From Oceanospirillum beijerinckii DSM 7166 (lineage in GTDB: Bacteria; Pseudomonadota; Gammaproteobacteria; Pseudomonadales; Halomonadaceae), in contig NZ_KE383828.1 in NCBI RefSeq assembly GCF_000422425.1, forward strand, positions 124,001 through 188,000: a stretch of 64,000 nt of DNA. Reading direction: 5' to 3'. Within the stretch, counting starts at the first letter, position 1. Every line of letters begins with the position of its first letter. Positions 531-60,938 of this stretch are shown in pieces. The notes below the pieces were generated by a model. It worked only from the letters and a program-made list of their open reading frames with translations, did not search any database and had not been told where the DNA came from. Both the position numbers and the translations under genes were made by a program.

Positions 531-3500
531 TTAAGCCGGGCTATCGGCTCTTTCGTTCTGTTCATCCAGCTTCAACAGTAGATGTTGTAACTGTCGGGCA
601 TAGTCACCGGGTTCCTGCCAAAGCCCTCGCTGTGTCGCTTCCAGCAGACGCTCTGCCATCTCTTCTAAGGCGTGAGGATTATGTTGTTGCAGGAAGTCCT
701 GATTCTCACGATCAAATACCAGAGCATCAGCGACTTTTTCGTATTGATAGTCATCAATCAGATCTGTTGTGGCATCATAGGCAAACAGATAATCCACACT
801 GGCCGCCATCTCAAACGCGCCTTTATAGCCGTGTTCACGCATGGCGTTGATCCACTTCGGGTTCAGTACGCGGCTGCGAATTACCCGGTTCAGTTCCTCT
901 TTTAAGGTGCGAATTTTTGGCGCTGATGGGTTGGAATGATCACTGTGATATACCTCAGGTGCTTCGCCCCGGAAGACCCGAACCGCGTTATTCATACCGC
1001 CCTGGAACTGGTAATAATCATCGGAATCGAGCAGATCGTGTTCCCGGTTATCCTGGTTCTGCACCACCACTTCCAGTTGGGACAGTCGATGCTGAAATGC
1101 CTGATGAGCCGCAACACCATCACCGGCCTGATTACCGTAGGCGTAGCCGCCCCAGTTCAGGTAAGCTTCAGCCAGATCACTGCTCTCTTCCCAGCAACGT
1201 TCATCAATCAGTCCCTGTAACCCGGCGCCATATGCGCCCGGTTTACTGCCAAAGACCCGATAACTGGCCTGACGCATCGCCTGCTCTGGCGACAGCCCTT
1301 GCTCAATCAATGCTTGTTGGCGAGATAGGATATTGGCCTTGATGGTATTGCCGTTACCCGGCTCTTCCAGCGCAGCAATTTTCTGAACTGCCGCATCATA
1401 GAGCTTCATCACATTAGGAAAGGCATCCCGGAAGAAACCCGAAACACGTAAGGTGACATCGACTCGGGGACGCCCCAGGCGCATACAGCTGATCACTTCA
1501 AAGTCGGTAACGCGATTCGACCCTGGTGCCCAGATTGGTCTGACGCCCATCAGAGCAAATGCCTGAGCGATATCATCGCCACCGGTGCGCATGGTGGCCG
1601 TCCCCCATACCGATAAGCCAAGCTGTTTCGGGAAATCGCCATGTTCCTGCAGATGGCGCTCGATCAATGCCTGTGCTGAACGCTCACCAATGGCCCAGGC
1701 GGCGGGTGATGGAATTGAGCGATTATCGACAGAGAAGAAGTTACGTCCGGTGGGTAAAGTATCCAGGCGGCCACGGGTGGGCGCACCGCTGGGACCTGGT
1801 GGCACAAACTGACCGGCCAGGCCATTTGTCAGGGCAGATAATTCCTGCTCTGCACTTTGCTCTAGTGCGGGGAGCAAACGGGCTTTGGCGTATTCCAACT
1901 GACGGGCTGTGCGTGGTAGACATTCTGCTAACTCAGCACCGAATCCCTGTTCAACGTTCAGAGACGTAGGTTGGATAAGCGAAGCGCCATCCGACATTGA
2001 AGCCTGCTCTCGAAGGACGGAATCTTTCAGCAAGAACACCTTAACTAACTTCAACGCTAACAGCTCAAGGCGCTCACGAGTATCTGCAGCAGTTCGCCAG
2101 TGAGTGTTCTGATCAACCTTCAGCAGACATTCCGGTCGTTTGCCCTGCCACGGCTGAGTATCTGCGGCGAGAGGATCAAAAAGTTCATCAGATGCCGTAC
2201 GCAGATCCAGATCCTGACTCAGGTTATGTAAAATTCCCTGGCTTTCAGCATCCGCGCCACGGGGTAAACGCAGCAAAGCCACTAAAGTGTCCGCCAGTTT
2301 ATCTGTATTCGGCAACTGCCCCAGAATATGCAGGCCATGACGGATCTGGGATTCTTTAATCTCACACAGGTAAGCATCCAGTTCGGCCAGTACTTCATCA
2401 TCAGATGATTCTGCCGTTGCTTTACCCAGCTCCTCCAGCAGATGCGTCTTGCGCACCTGCTGCATAATTTCGTCGCGCAGCCATTTTTCCCGGCGCTCAT
2501 CCATGCCCATTGCCTGATAGTATTCATCTACCAGGCTTTCCAGTTCTGCCATTTCGCCGTAGCTTTCCGCACGGGTCATCGGTGGCATCAGATGATCAAT
2601 AATTACCGCCTGAGTACGACGCTTAGCCTGAGTGCCCTCACCAGGGTCATTGACAATAAACGGATAAAAATGCGGCACCGGCCCTAAGGCAATATCCGGC
2701 CAGCACTGATCAGATAAAGCAGTCCCCTTACCGGGTAACCACTCCAGATTGCCGTGTTTGCCCACGTGCACCACAGCTTCTACCTGATAGCAGTGACGTA
2801 ACCAGAAATAAAACGCCAGATAGTTATGGGGCGGAATCAGATCCGGGTCATGGTAGTTAGCCGCCAGATCAATATTAAAACCGCGGGCAGGCTGAATACC
2901 GACAAACACCTCTCCTAAGCGAAGGCCAGAAAGCATCAAGCGGCCATCACGACACTTAATATCCTGTTCTGGTGCTCCCCAACGCTCCAGCACGGCTTGC
3001 TGACATTCCAGGGGGATCTGGCTGAAGTGATGACGATACTCATCCAGCGCCATACTTTGCCAGCAGGGTAGCTGATGCAGTGTGTTCGGGTTATTGGTCA
3101 CGGATTCCAGTAACCATTCGATCAGCTCAGTGCCGGTTTCTGGCAACTGATCCAGCGGATAACCCGATGCTTTTAAGGCTTGCAGAATATTAACCGATGA
3201 TTGAGGTGTATCCAGTCCGACCCCGTTACCAATACGACCGTCTTTAGTCGGGTAATTGGCCAGAATAATCGCCAGTCGTTTATCCCCATTGGCTTTATCT
3301 GATAGCTGACAATAACGCCGGGCCAGCTCAGCAATAAAGTTCGCTCGTTCCTGGTGCAACTGGTAACGCACCACCGAGACCTGGCAGCGTAGATCAAACC
3401 AGGACTCCGCCTTAAAACTAACTGCACGGGTGATCACCCGACCGTCCATCTCTGGTAACACCACCTGCATGGCGATATCACGACTGCGCAGCCCCTGGCT

Positions 3501-4643
3501 ATGTTGTTGCCAGTCTTGCTCCGTACTACCGGACAGTACCAGTTGCAGTACGGGGATCTGACGTTCAAACGGAGAGGCAAACTCAGTCGGCTCGGAACTC
3601 AGATCCGGGCTATCAACACGGTTACTGGCAAAACCTGTGGTATTGATGATTAAACGGGCATCATGTTGCTCTGCCAGATGATTGACCAGGGCTACAGATT
3701 CATCGTCTTTTAACGACGCTATTGCTACCGCAACCGGGTTTAAACCCTGAGCTTGTAAAGCACTCATCAGGCCATCAAAAACGTCAGTATTGGCACTCTG
3801 CAGATGACTGCGGTATAACAGCAACAGACATGTTTTTTGAGACAGCCCTGAGCCTTGGAATAGTCCTGAGTTTTTAAAAAGCTCTGAGTCTTGAGACTCA
3901 CTTTTGCTGCCTTCCTTTCCTGCCGCTGGGAAATAACGCATCGCATTTGGCAGAACCCGAGGCTCCTGCCATTGCTGTAGATAGGTGATCTGCTTTTGAT
4001 CAAAGCTTGTCTTTTCACTCTGCAGACAAAATCCAGGCGTCCAACCGTTGCCCAGTAACACTTCCTGAGTTAAAAATCGCAGCAGGTTTTCACTGTTTTC
4101 AATGCCACTCTGACGCAGGTAACGCCAGACTTTCTGGCAGGTATTCAGATCCTGAGTCGATGCAGTAAACAACTCAGGATCAGGGGTATCATCCCCCGGC
4201 ACAATAATCAGCTGACGGGCACGTCCCGATGGTGTCTGGCCTTTGCTCCAGTCCAGCAGACGCTCAAAACCATATTCCCAGTAGTTCTGCCCTCCTAGTA
4301 AGGACAGTACCACCAGCTCAGCCTGTTCCAGCACTTTATGCTCGTACAGATCATAAGCAGCAGGTTTTAAAAGCTGCATCCAGTTAGCTAAACGGATCGC
4401 GGGTGTCGGTTTTTGCTTTTCACCTGCTTTAACCTCTTGCTCAACTTTTTCAACACTATCGCCTGTGTCTGATAGAGAAACATCGCGATAGAGCTGCTGA
4501 TAAAAGCGTCTGGCCCCTTCAGATAAAGCCGCCAGAGAGGTATCCGCTGCAGAAAGAATGATGATATCACCGGGAGTCTGATCCAGGTCGATAATCCCCT
4601 CATCATCCACAAAACCACCGGGTTGTGCCGCCAGCAGGTGCAT
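531..4643 (-). CDS. cobN: Cobaltochelatase large subunit CobN
   Basis: CobN is the porphyrin-binding large subunit of the ATP-dependent cobalt chelatase, related to magnesium chelatase ChlH/BchH. The 1370-residue length is within the family range. The conserved block GKHGNLEWLPGKG lies near residue 626. The partner AAA+ and VWA subunits are supplied by the fused ChlI/ChlD gene at 15273-17414. cobW ends 1 base before this ATG, so the two are translated together. Two oddities stand out. Residues about 245-265 are a Ser/Glu/Gly-rich insert with short internal repeats. Residues about 882-893 are encoded by a 35-bp fragment of a dispersed palindromic repeat (1966-2000) that keeps the frame. In late-cobalt pathways CobN acts on hydrogenobyrinate diamide. 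Here the other enzymes are of the early-cobalt type, so its real substrate is unclear. Confidence 0.93.
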   Translation of the reverse strand: MHLLAAQPGGFVDDEGIIDLDQTPGDIIILSAADTSLAALSEGARRFYQQLYRDVSLSDTGDSVEKVEQEVKAGEKQKPTPAIRLANWMQLLKPAAYDLYEHKVLEQAELVVLSLLGGQNYWEYGFERLLDWSKGQTPSGRARQLIIVPGDDTPDPELFTASTQDLNTCQKVWRYLRQSGIENSENLLRFLTQEVLLGNGWTPGFCLQSEKTSFDQKQITYLQQWQEPRVLPNAMRYFPAAGKEGSKSESQDSELFKNSGLFQGSGLSQKTCLLLLYRSHLQSANTDVFDGLMSALQAQGLNPVAVAIASLKDDESVALVNHLAEQHDARLIINTTGFASNRVDSPDLSSEPTEFASPFERQIPVLQLVLSGSTEQDWQQHSQGLRSRDIAMQVVLPEMDGRVITRAVSFKAESWFDLRCQVSVVRYQLHQERANFIAELARRYCQLSDKANGDKRLAIILANYPTKDGRIGNGVGLDTPQSSVNILQALKASGYPLDQLPETGTELIEWLLESVTNNPNTLHQLPCWQSMALDEYRHHFSQIPLECQQAVLERWGAPEQDIKCRDGRLMLSGLRLGEVFVGIQPARGFNIDLAANYHDPDLIPPHNYLAFYFWLRHCYQVEAVVHVGKHGNLEWLPGKGTALSDQCWPDIALGPVPHFYPFIVNDPGEGTQAKRRTQAVIIDHLMPPMTRAESYGEMAELESLVDEYYQAMGMDERREKWLRDEIMQQVRKTHLLEELGKATAESSDDEVLAELDAYLCEIKESQIRHGLHILGQLPNTDKLADTLVALLRLPRGADAESQGILHNLSQDLDLRTASDELFDPLAADTQPWQGKRPECLLKVDQNTHWRTAADTRERLELLALKLVKVFLLKDSVLREQASMSDGASLIQPTSLNVEQGFGAELAECLPRTARQLEYAKARLLPALEQSAEQELSALTNGLAGQFVPPGPSGAPTRGRLDTLPTGRNFFSVDNRSIPSPAAWAIGERSAQALIERHLQEHGDFPKQLGLSVWGTATMRTGGDDIAQAFALMGVRPIWAPGSNRVTDFEVISCMRLGRPRVDVTLRVSGFFRDAFPNVMKLYDAAVQKIAALEEPGNGNTIKANILSRQQALIEQGLSPEQAMRQASYRVFGSKPGAYGAGLQGLIDERCWEESSDLAEAYLNWGGYAYGNQAGDGVAAHQAFQHRLSQLEVVVQNQDNREHDLLDSDDYYQFQGGMNNAVRVFRGEAPEVYHSDHSNPSAPKIRTLKEELNRVIRSRVLNPKWINAMREHGYKGAFEMAASVDYLFAYDATTDLIDDYQYEKVADALVFDRENQDFLQQHNPHALEEMAERLLEATQRGLWQEPGDYARQLQHLLLKLDEQNERADSPA
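1966..2000 (-). repeat. Partial copy of the dispersed palindromic element, inside cobN
   Basis: The plus strand reads GTAGGTTGGATAAGCGAAGC, then GCCATCCGACATTGA. It matches one half of the elements at 11495-11633 and 36768-36907 almost base for base. It is read through in frame by cobN as the peptide segment MSDGASLIQPT. The other half and the inverted ends are absent, so this is a remnant or a partial insertion. Confidence 0.75.
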
Positions 4644-59088: not shown

Positions 59089-60057
59089 TTAACGTGTCAT
59101 TTTCTTAACAAAAACAACAACAAATAAGGCAAGCGTAAAACTGCCGATAAAAGCCTCTCCTCCGGCAAACAACCGGCTCCAGCCATTGGGAGTGATATCA
59201 CCAAAGCCGAGAGTGGTAAAAGTAACCGCACTAAAATAGAGCGCATTTAAGAAGTTCTCGATATTTTGCAAGACAGGAAGATCACTACTGAACTTCACCA
59301 GATTGCCACCATCATTAACCCCATTAAGAAAATACGCTACAGCAAAGGCCAGGATCAGAAAAACCGAGAAAAATATAATCCTAAGCGGCCTTTCACCATA
59401 ACCACAAAAAAGATCTACAGTCCGCGAAACAAAACGCGACATGGAGTAATAAGGCATCTGTAGACGACGCATCACCATCTCACGACGGAAGAAATACCCC
59501 GCCTGCTCAAACAACCCTTCATGCTCCAGCACTCGGCGCAAGTTCCGATACACCTCTTCTGCCTGTTCAAGATAATCCTGCCTGTCAGCAAGATCCTTAC
59601 TGGCATGAGCCATCTTCTCTTGAAGCACATAGTGCCCCCATTGGATATTATCCAGACGGGCATCTTCGAGCCTTGTCCCCAATAGATTGGCATCTTCCAA
59701 GTTGGCACAGTGAAGATTCGCCCCTCTTAAATCAGCTTTCATAAGTGAAGCATGCTGCAAATTGGCGTTAAACAAATGAGCCTTTTGCATATTGGCACGA
59801 TAAAAGTCACTGTAACTCAGGTCATAACCTTGCTTACAACCATGATTGACCAAATTGATATCAGACAGATCAGTTCTTCTTAGTGAGACTCCCTGCATGG
59901 GTAGGTTTGTTTTGGCCCTGGTTTCTAATTTATCTTTCAAATCAGTACGATCCTTAACCTGGTCGCTGTTATGCCAATAACATCGACCATCATATTCTGC
60001 CGATTCAGTGCAAGGTAAGCCATCAGGGCTAATGTATTTACAACGAGGTTCAATCAT
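59089..60057 (-). CDS. Pentapeptide-repeat protein fused to a two-helix potassium-channel-like module
   Basis: The product has 322 residues. The N-terminus carries a candidate zinc site, C6, C16, C26 and H29. Residues about 58-135 are A(D/N)Lxx pentapeptide repeats. A coiled region follows, then two membrane helices at about 226-246 and 300-320. Between them is the pore loop with selectivity-filter-like TTLGFGDI. The TxGFGD form matches two-TM potassium channels. It may be a gated channel with a cytosolic quadrilateral beta-helix as sensor. The gene stands alone and converges with DUF482. Confidence 0.85.
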   Translation of the reverse strand: MIEPRCKYISPDGLPCTESAEYDGRCYWHNSDQVKDRTDLKDKLETRAKTNLPMQGVSLRRTDLSDINLVNHGCKQGYDLSYSDFYRANMQKAHLFNANLQHASLMKADLRGANLHCANLEDANLLGTRLEDARLDNIQWGHYVLQEKMAHASKDLADRQDYLEQAEEVYRNLRRVLEHEGLFEQAGYFFRREMVMRRLQMPYYSMSRFVSRTVDLFCGYGERPLRIIFFSVFLILAFAVAYFLNGVNDGGNLVKFSSDLPVLQNIENFLNALYFSAVTFTTLGFGDITPNGWSRLFAGGEAFIGSFTLALFVVVFVKKMTR

Positions 60058-60293: not shown

Positions 60294-60938
60294 ATGTTGA
60301 AAAAGTTATTTTTAAGCATTTTACTGCTGACTTTTCTCACAGGCTGTCAAAGCGCCTACTACTCAGCAATGGAACAGGTTGGTGTTCATAAAAGAGATAT
60401 TCTGGTAGACAGGGTTGATAGCGCCAAAGAGTCTCAGGAGGAAGCACAGGAACAGTTCAAGAGTGCGTTAGAGCAGTATAAAGCTGTCGTGAACTTTGAC
60501 GGTGGCGAGCTGGAAGGCATGTATAACCGCCTTGAAGGTGAATATGAAGACAGTAAATCAGCCGCAGAGTCAGTGACTAAGCATATTGATCGTGTTGAGG
60601 ATGTTGCTGAAGCTCTGTTCGAAGAATGGCAGGAAGAACTAACACAATACAACAATGCGAGTCTGCGCCGCCAAAGTGAACGCCAACTCCGTGATACCAA
60701 GCGCCGCTACAAAAGCCTGATCAGCTCCATGCGCAAAGCTGAACGTCGTATGGAACCGGTATTGGTTGCACTGAACGACAATGTGCTATATCTGAAGCAC
60801 AACTTGAATGCCCGTGCTATCGGTGCGTTAAAAGGTGAGCTGAATGCTATACGCCAGGATGTGGATGTACTGATTCGTGATATGCAAACCGCTATCAATG
60901 AATCCAACCGCTTTATCAAAGAACTTGAAAGTAAGTAA
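60294..60938 (+). CDS. DUF2959 lipoprotein
   Basis: The product has 214 residues with a lipoprotein signal, lipobox LTGC and lipid Cys at 18. The rest is charged and almost wholly helical, with long coiled-coil stretches, as in the DUF2959 family found in marine gammaproteobacteria. MEQVGVHKRDILVDRVDSAK is the conserved N-terminal block of that family. No function is known. AAGGAT lies before the ATG. A strong hairpin follows the stop, so it is probably transcribed alone. Confidence 0.88.
   Translation: MLKKLFLSILLLTFLTGCQSAYYSAMEQVGVHKRDILVDRVDSAKESQEEAQEQFKSALEQYKAVVNFDGGELEGMYNRLEGEYEDSKSAAESVTKHIDRVEDVAEALFEEWQEELTQYNNASLRRQSERQLRDTKRRYKSLISSMRKAERRMEPVLVALNDNVLYLKHNLNARAIGALKGELNAIRQDVDVLIRDMQTAINESNRFIKELESK

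Follow-up and report, generated by a model that had tools for sequence, protein, structure and literature searches.

A potassium-channel-like protein of Oceanospirillum beijerinckii with a pentapeptide β-helix ahead of its pore

The window, a stretch of 64,000 nucleotides from Oceanospirillum beijerinckii DSM 7166, carries a gene for a single chain in which a Cys/His knuckle, a pentapeptide-repeat β-helix, a helical linker and a two-helix pore follow one another. A first-pass annotation had placed this gene at 59089-60057 on the minus strand with a product of 322 amino acids, and these values are correct. The C-C-C-H site that it described is present as C6, C16, C26 and H29, and its helical linker leading into a two-helix pore with TTLGFGDI is borne out by both Pfam and a structure model. 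The features are as follows.

59089-60057, minus strand: whole open reading frame, pentapeptide-repeat two-helix channel of 322 amino acids with an ATG start (Pfam, homologues, model)
59971-60042, minus strand: knuckle C6-C16-C26-W-H29, residues 6-29 (invariant residues, weak DUF5763 match, pLDDT 86-91)
59641-59898, minus strand: pentapeptide β-helix, residues 54-139, about 16 units in about four coils (PF00805, bridges, face-specific conservation)
59386-59640, minus strand: helical linker, residues 140-224, ending in the pre-TM1 motif C218-G-Y-G-E-R-P224 (alignment, model)
59323-59388, minus strand: TM1, the outer helix, residues 224-245 (model helix 224-245; Ion_trans_2 from residue 233)
59188-59274, minus strand: pore helix and filter region, residues 262-290 (Pfam, model, family pattern)
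59194-59217, minus strand: filter TTLGFGDI, residues 281-288 (T281 to I288)
59095-59178, minus strand: TM2, the inner helix, residues 294-321 (model; one residue left before the C terminus)

Both recognizable domains score well above their Pfam thresholds: PF00805 (Pentapeptide) at 48.9 bits against a cut-off of 20.2, and PF07885 (Ion_trans_2) at 51.3 bits against a gathering cut-off of 22.5. With at least eight repeats, PF00805 above its cut-off and a β-helix, the product is a pentapeptide repeat protein. All modules are kept in four full-length homologues (46-67% identity), and all 56 aligned members of the family match both PF00805 and PF07885 (Pfam, E 0.01); chance origin is therefore discounted. 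Judged from its sequence, this is a real, conserved potassium-channel-like protein and no artefact. A scan for regulatory signals gave one promoter-like match where shuffled sequence averaged 2.5, and eight terminator-like matches where it averaged 1.2.

The structure model, computed from the 56-row alignment, is confident throughout (mean pLDDT 92.4, pTM 0.84, no stretch below 50). It contains 16 pentapeptide bridges between residues 58 and 139, which recur every five residues apart from a single step of 11 (68 to 79), so the earlier estimate of about 15 units was fair. The protein has its β-helix fold in common with the soluble pentapeptide proteins HetL, Rfr23, MfpA and Qnr, which lack a pore; most fold matches begin at or after residue 25, past most of the knuckle (VIA-align). 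Membership in the gyrase-protecting Qnr and MfpA families was rejected (22.2 bits against an NCBIfam cut-off of 240 and 17.4 against 360, respectively). The pore fold and filter are those of the two-helix K+ channels KirBac, NaK and MthK. KirBac and MthK have their gating domains after TM2, whereas here the predicted sensor stands before TM1 and no domain follows TM2, whose helix reaches residue 321 of 322 in the model. A TM1-coupled sensor without a domain after TM2 is unlike the well-known prokaryotic K+ channels. Because a single residue follows TM2, gating would have to act through TM1 from the N-terminal side.

Relatives of the protein are scattered. Among 58 genomes around its own, 25 contain some match (E 0.001) and six a full-length one: the genome itself, three of the five other congeners and two from the same order. 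In even samples that count the source genome, the family occurs in 3 of 339 genomes of the class and 4 of 299 of the phylum, and is thus patchy. A scan of a genome collection described as comprising 84,980 genomes yielded 462 candidate stretches, of which 360 were confirmed, and the best 80 of these 360 loci, with the window, make up the family set of 81 sequences. By their titles, the best 80 of 360 come mostly from marine gammaproteobacteria (Oceanospirillum, Enterovibrio, Shewanella, Pseudoalteromonas, Colwellia and Catenovulum), and they also include two Pseudomonas, Thiotrichaceae and a few records labelled Campylobacterota or Alphaproteobacteria. The nearest named relatives are Oceanospirillum species. 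In a plasmid collection, one closely similar protein, at 54% identity, appeared among the 40 records listed of 161 matching ones, in a 4.9-Mb Aeromonas record; with one such record among the matches listed, we take the family to be chromosomal. That record (NZ_AP026896.1, Aeromonas caviae) is titled 'plasmid', and its size suggests a mislabelled chromosome. Soil bacteria, Sinorhizobium among them, also turned up in the plasmid search with the linker and pore (50 of 161 records). Phage origin was considered and rejected, as a phage search with residues 157-322 gave one match, at 27% coverage and E 1.

No conserved operon partner was found across the 81 loci, the largest cluster of neighbouring genes covering 14 of them. 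In the window, the neighbours are UPF0231, HIT, FemAB_like, DUF2959, and NMT1_3 with DctM (a TRAP-type transporter); the DUF2959 gene, at 60294-60938, adjoins the channel gene divergently.

The filter pattern TTLG[YF]GD was matched by script in 81 of 81 family sequences. Eighty read TTLGYGD, and the window alone reads TTLGFGD. From this filter and the pore fold, K+ conduction is likely. Residues C218, G219, Y220, G221 and P224 are invariant in 56 of 56 members, and the C terminus VKKMTR was recovered by script in 65 of 81 sequences, or 66 with a Marinomonas member (L048) in which the script stopped at a stop codon; since the genome scan took its patterns from the linker and TM2, the way the sequences were selected accounts for part of the conservation seen in these regions. 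The triplet G[YH]G precedes TM1 in all seven proteins aligned across wider distances: the window protein, three from haloarchaea and one each from Priestia, Nostoc and Gordonia. The pattern failed in six more haloarchaeal proteins (L127-L132), of which the five inspected by eye have YGE, HGE or YGT at this place. In the Oceanospirillum sanctuarii loci L004 and L023, an in-frame TAG near the gene end truncates the otherwise conserved C-terminal tail, and is a natural variant, decay or a sequence error.

The β-helix is conserved on some faces and variable on others. Residues 78-137 form twelve regular pentapeptides, which we assigned to their faces before taking the entropy at positions i-1, i+1 and i+2. 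Mean entropies lay at 0.04-0.64 bits for face 1 and at 0.78-1.05 for face 3, against 2.01-2.75 for faces 0 and 2, which makes conserved faces 1 and 3 against variable faces 0 and 2 the most extreme of the 924 six-versus-six splits, for faces grouped after the data were seen, in related sequences and with the period of four fixed by the fold. Faces 1 and 3 lie opposite each other on the quadrilateral helix, and none of the 56 members departs from Y86, H94, M106, K107, N124 or L126. One of the two faces probably serves packing and the other a ligand or partner.

The N-terminal knuckle is widespread in the family. C6, C16, C26, W28 and H29 are invariant in all five sequences of a first alignment, and a strict pattern finds the knuckle in 67 of 81 family sequences against 0 of the 712 open reading frames around the 81 loci (a loose pattern matches 7 of the 712). 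Two further members bring the total to 69: L097, in which the knuckle is visible and the script had cut the frame at 140 residues, and L048, in which it lies in another frame. Eleven members are without it, and L036 is undecided on account of ambiguous bases, leaving 80 decidable members. In L048 (Marinomonas sp. SBI8L) the knuckle, upstream of 5064, is in a different frame from the rest of the gene, which is either frameshifted or affected by an assembly error. Membership of residues 6-32 in DUF5763 (PF19067) was rejected, the score of 19.4 bits lying below the gathering threshold of 26.3; five of the 56 members match that family at E 0.01.

The knuckle also extends into the haloarchaea. We read 13 outside relatives, chosen from 15 regions out of the 161 matching plasmid records, omitting the Aeromonas protein (L113) and a Halalkalicoccus gene (L124), which is split over three open reading frames and stands outside the haloarchaeal count of ten. 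All ten intact haloarchaeal relatives that were read contain a knuckle of the form C..C..C-x-x-H, seven by a looser pattern that had no control of its own and three by eye (L130, L112 and L121). The L130 knuckle ends C-x-L-H, and in L112 (upstream of 2665) and L121 (upstream of 1550) an in-frame knuckle precedes the annotated start, so that both would count as misses if that start were taken. As in the window protein, a knuckle ending in C-x-[WFL]-H is joined to a channel domain; the Halomicrobium protein, for instance, has both pentapeptide and pore by Pfam and is 33% identical to the window protein over 285 columns. The haloarchaeal proteins differ in length (287-775 amino acids as annotated), in having been found here on plasmids, and in their varied filters (TTLGYGN, STLGYGD and ATLGLGD, for example). 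Its presence in ten of ten makes the knuckle probably old and useful, and its occurrence in two domains of life suggests either that it is old in the channel family or that it was carried with the channel by transfer.

The first-pass annotation had proposed a potassium channel gated by a cytosolic β-helix, possibly through metal or redox state. Sequence, model and a fold match to HalA support the channel with its cytosolic β-helix sensor; gating by metal or redox state is no more than possible. In that proposal, Zn2+ loading or oxidation of the knuckle would set the β-helix and hence the pore, and the frequency of the knuckle in the family and in haloarchaea speaks for it. The knuckle is, however, missing in 11 of 80 members that keep β-helix, linker and pore, and is thus common but dispensable and not essential to the pore. 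On a quick tree its state changes at least four times with L048 scored as present and five times with L048 scored as absent, three of these five being forced by well-supported branches; the tree carries SH-aLRT support only, leaves out the knuckle's own columns and has an extremely long outgroup branch, which makes root and direction unsure. Ten of the eleven knuckle-less members have, by eye, a tryptophan near the place of W28 in the called protein, and in the eleventh (L096) one lies upstream of the called protein. This suits a structural cap, and such knuckle sites are often purely structural. We consider a metal- or redox-gated channel unlikely.

The closest known architecture is that of HalA, the channel effector of the Hailong anti-phage system (PDB 9nyi; NCBIfam NF051894), in which a pentapeptide β-helix, a helical linker and a two-helix pore likewise form one chain. 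The HalA structure 9nyi_A ('Structure of HalA in complex with oligodeoxyadenylate') is the top full-length PDB match of our model in Foldseek (E 1.4e-8, 327 columns, 12% identity, TM-score 0.36, rmsd 9.4 Å). In VIA-align it ranks 18th (Z 13.3, rmsd 6.9 Å, 264 aligned residues, model span 25-322), behind pentapeptide proteins that reach Z 17.5 and align no further than residue 231. With rmsd values this large, agreement can be claimed for the order of the modules but not for their mutual placement. By analogy with HalA, a channel with a β-helix sensor is an already known kind of protein, and the family is a HalA-like pentapeptide channel that has a knuckle and, in the searches made here, no partner enzyme.

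A plasmid of Priestia megaterium offers an intermediate point of comparison. At 2542-4145 of locus L111, a HalA-like gene overlaps a nucleotidyltransferase gene; both products score below their NCBIfam cut-offs (40 against 250 bits for HalA, 45 against 190 for the nucleotidyltransferase), and from sequence the two genes probably make up a divergent Hailong system. When the Priestia linker and pore were searched against PDB sequences, HalA was absent from the 60 matches listed out of 77. The HalA-like Priestia protein is 22% identical to the window protein, which it resembles in the GYG before TM1 and in a short C-terminal tail; unlike the window protein, it has no knuckle and its filter reads TTVGYGQ.

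As described in a paper that cites the Hailong work (PMC12657230), the system's own single-stranded DNA oligomers suppress the effector, and phage exonuclease activity lifts that suppression. The window protein could be a defence effector of the HalA type: a nucleic acid or nucleotide produced elsewhere in the cell would hold it closed, and phage infection would release it. Beyond the fold match to HalA bound to oligodeoxyadenylate, this reading can draw on the patchy distribution and on a weak match of the HalA family model to residues 157-322 (E 0.0026). At 17 bits, that match falls short of the cut-off of 250, so membership in HalA was rejected. In wider searches, the HalA family gave no match at E 1e-12 in 369 genomes of the class, where control genomes were equally silent, and at E 0.001 matched in 9 of 38 relatives, nearly all through the pentapeptide part and none above the cut-off. 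The partner is likewise missing: phmmer with one Priestia nucleotidyltransferase as query found no HalB-like protein among the 712 neighbouring open reading frames, and the HalB family (NF051895) had no match at E 0.001 in the source genome or five congeners, in a search whose controls matched in 5 of 14 with none above cut-off. Weak partial HalB matches (21-22 bits) occurred in two of 19 genomes. Neighbouring genes vary by genus and look housekeeping-like by eye, PADLOC returned a single weak match (12 bits, to a methyltransferase), and a close-relative search of viral_contigs, which bears equally on viral origin, found no relative. A defence role of this kind appears quite improbable.

The reading we favour, at a probability of roughly 0.6, is a K+-selective two-helix channel opened through an N-terminal cytosolic sensor, built like HalA but standing alone; its K+ conduction, tetrameric state, cytosolic side, coupling direction and role in salt are what we infer. 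The sensor would comprise the knuckle as a cap, the pentapeptide β-helix and the helical linker in a presumed tetramer, with the C-G-Y-G-E-x-P stretch passing its action on to TM1. Of the two conserved β-helix faces, one probably packs against the linker or an adjacent subunit and the other probably binds a ligand or partner. The HalA precedent makes ligand control of such a chain possible, and since no dedicated enzyme adjoins the gene, one would expect the ligand to be either a protein or some common species of the cytosol. Most likely, the channel would adjust K+ or membrane potential in salt-adapted cells, a role suggested by the marine and halophilic habitats of its hosts, beside which the Pseudomonas members and the soil-bacterial matches also exist. 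That the gene instead encodes a non-working channel, a decoy or decaying copy marked by the family's only phenylalanine-for-tyrosine filter change, with an in-frame stop near the gene end in one congener also speaking for it, is very improbable given an intact reading frame, 66-67% identity over the full length to two congeners and the fact that GFG filters pass K+ in other channels.

A broader and more speculative history, which we put forward tentatively and think unlikely, would make this an old K+ channel family of haloarchaea and marine bacteria in which the knuckle and the two-faced β-helix sense a cytosolic nucleic acid, nucleotide or metal and open the pore via TM1. HalA would then have branched off into defence, losing the knuckle and acquiring an enzyme that makes its ligand.

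A pentapeptide-repeat K+ channel is named in no title found by our literature search, whose coverage excludes most subscription journals, and a term search in a 2021 review of the pentapeptide superfamily (PMC8145042) met no word beginning 'channel'. The relatives that we read are annotated as 'pentapeptide repeat-containing', as 'potassium channel family' or not at all, and the link to HalA gives these proteins a testable gating model. HalA in turn gains a sister family that lacks a partner enzyme, and Y86, H94, M106, K107, N114, N124 and L126, on the two conserved faces, stand out as residues for mutation.

The knuckle pattern is unmatched in the Nostoc, Gordonia and Priestia proteins. The Nostoc (L120, 1562-2950) and Gordonia (L122, 647-3001) proteins have the linker and pore region with degenerate filters, STIGFPD and RPAGLSG, and by these sequences are perhaps non-K+ channels.
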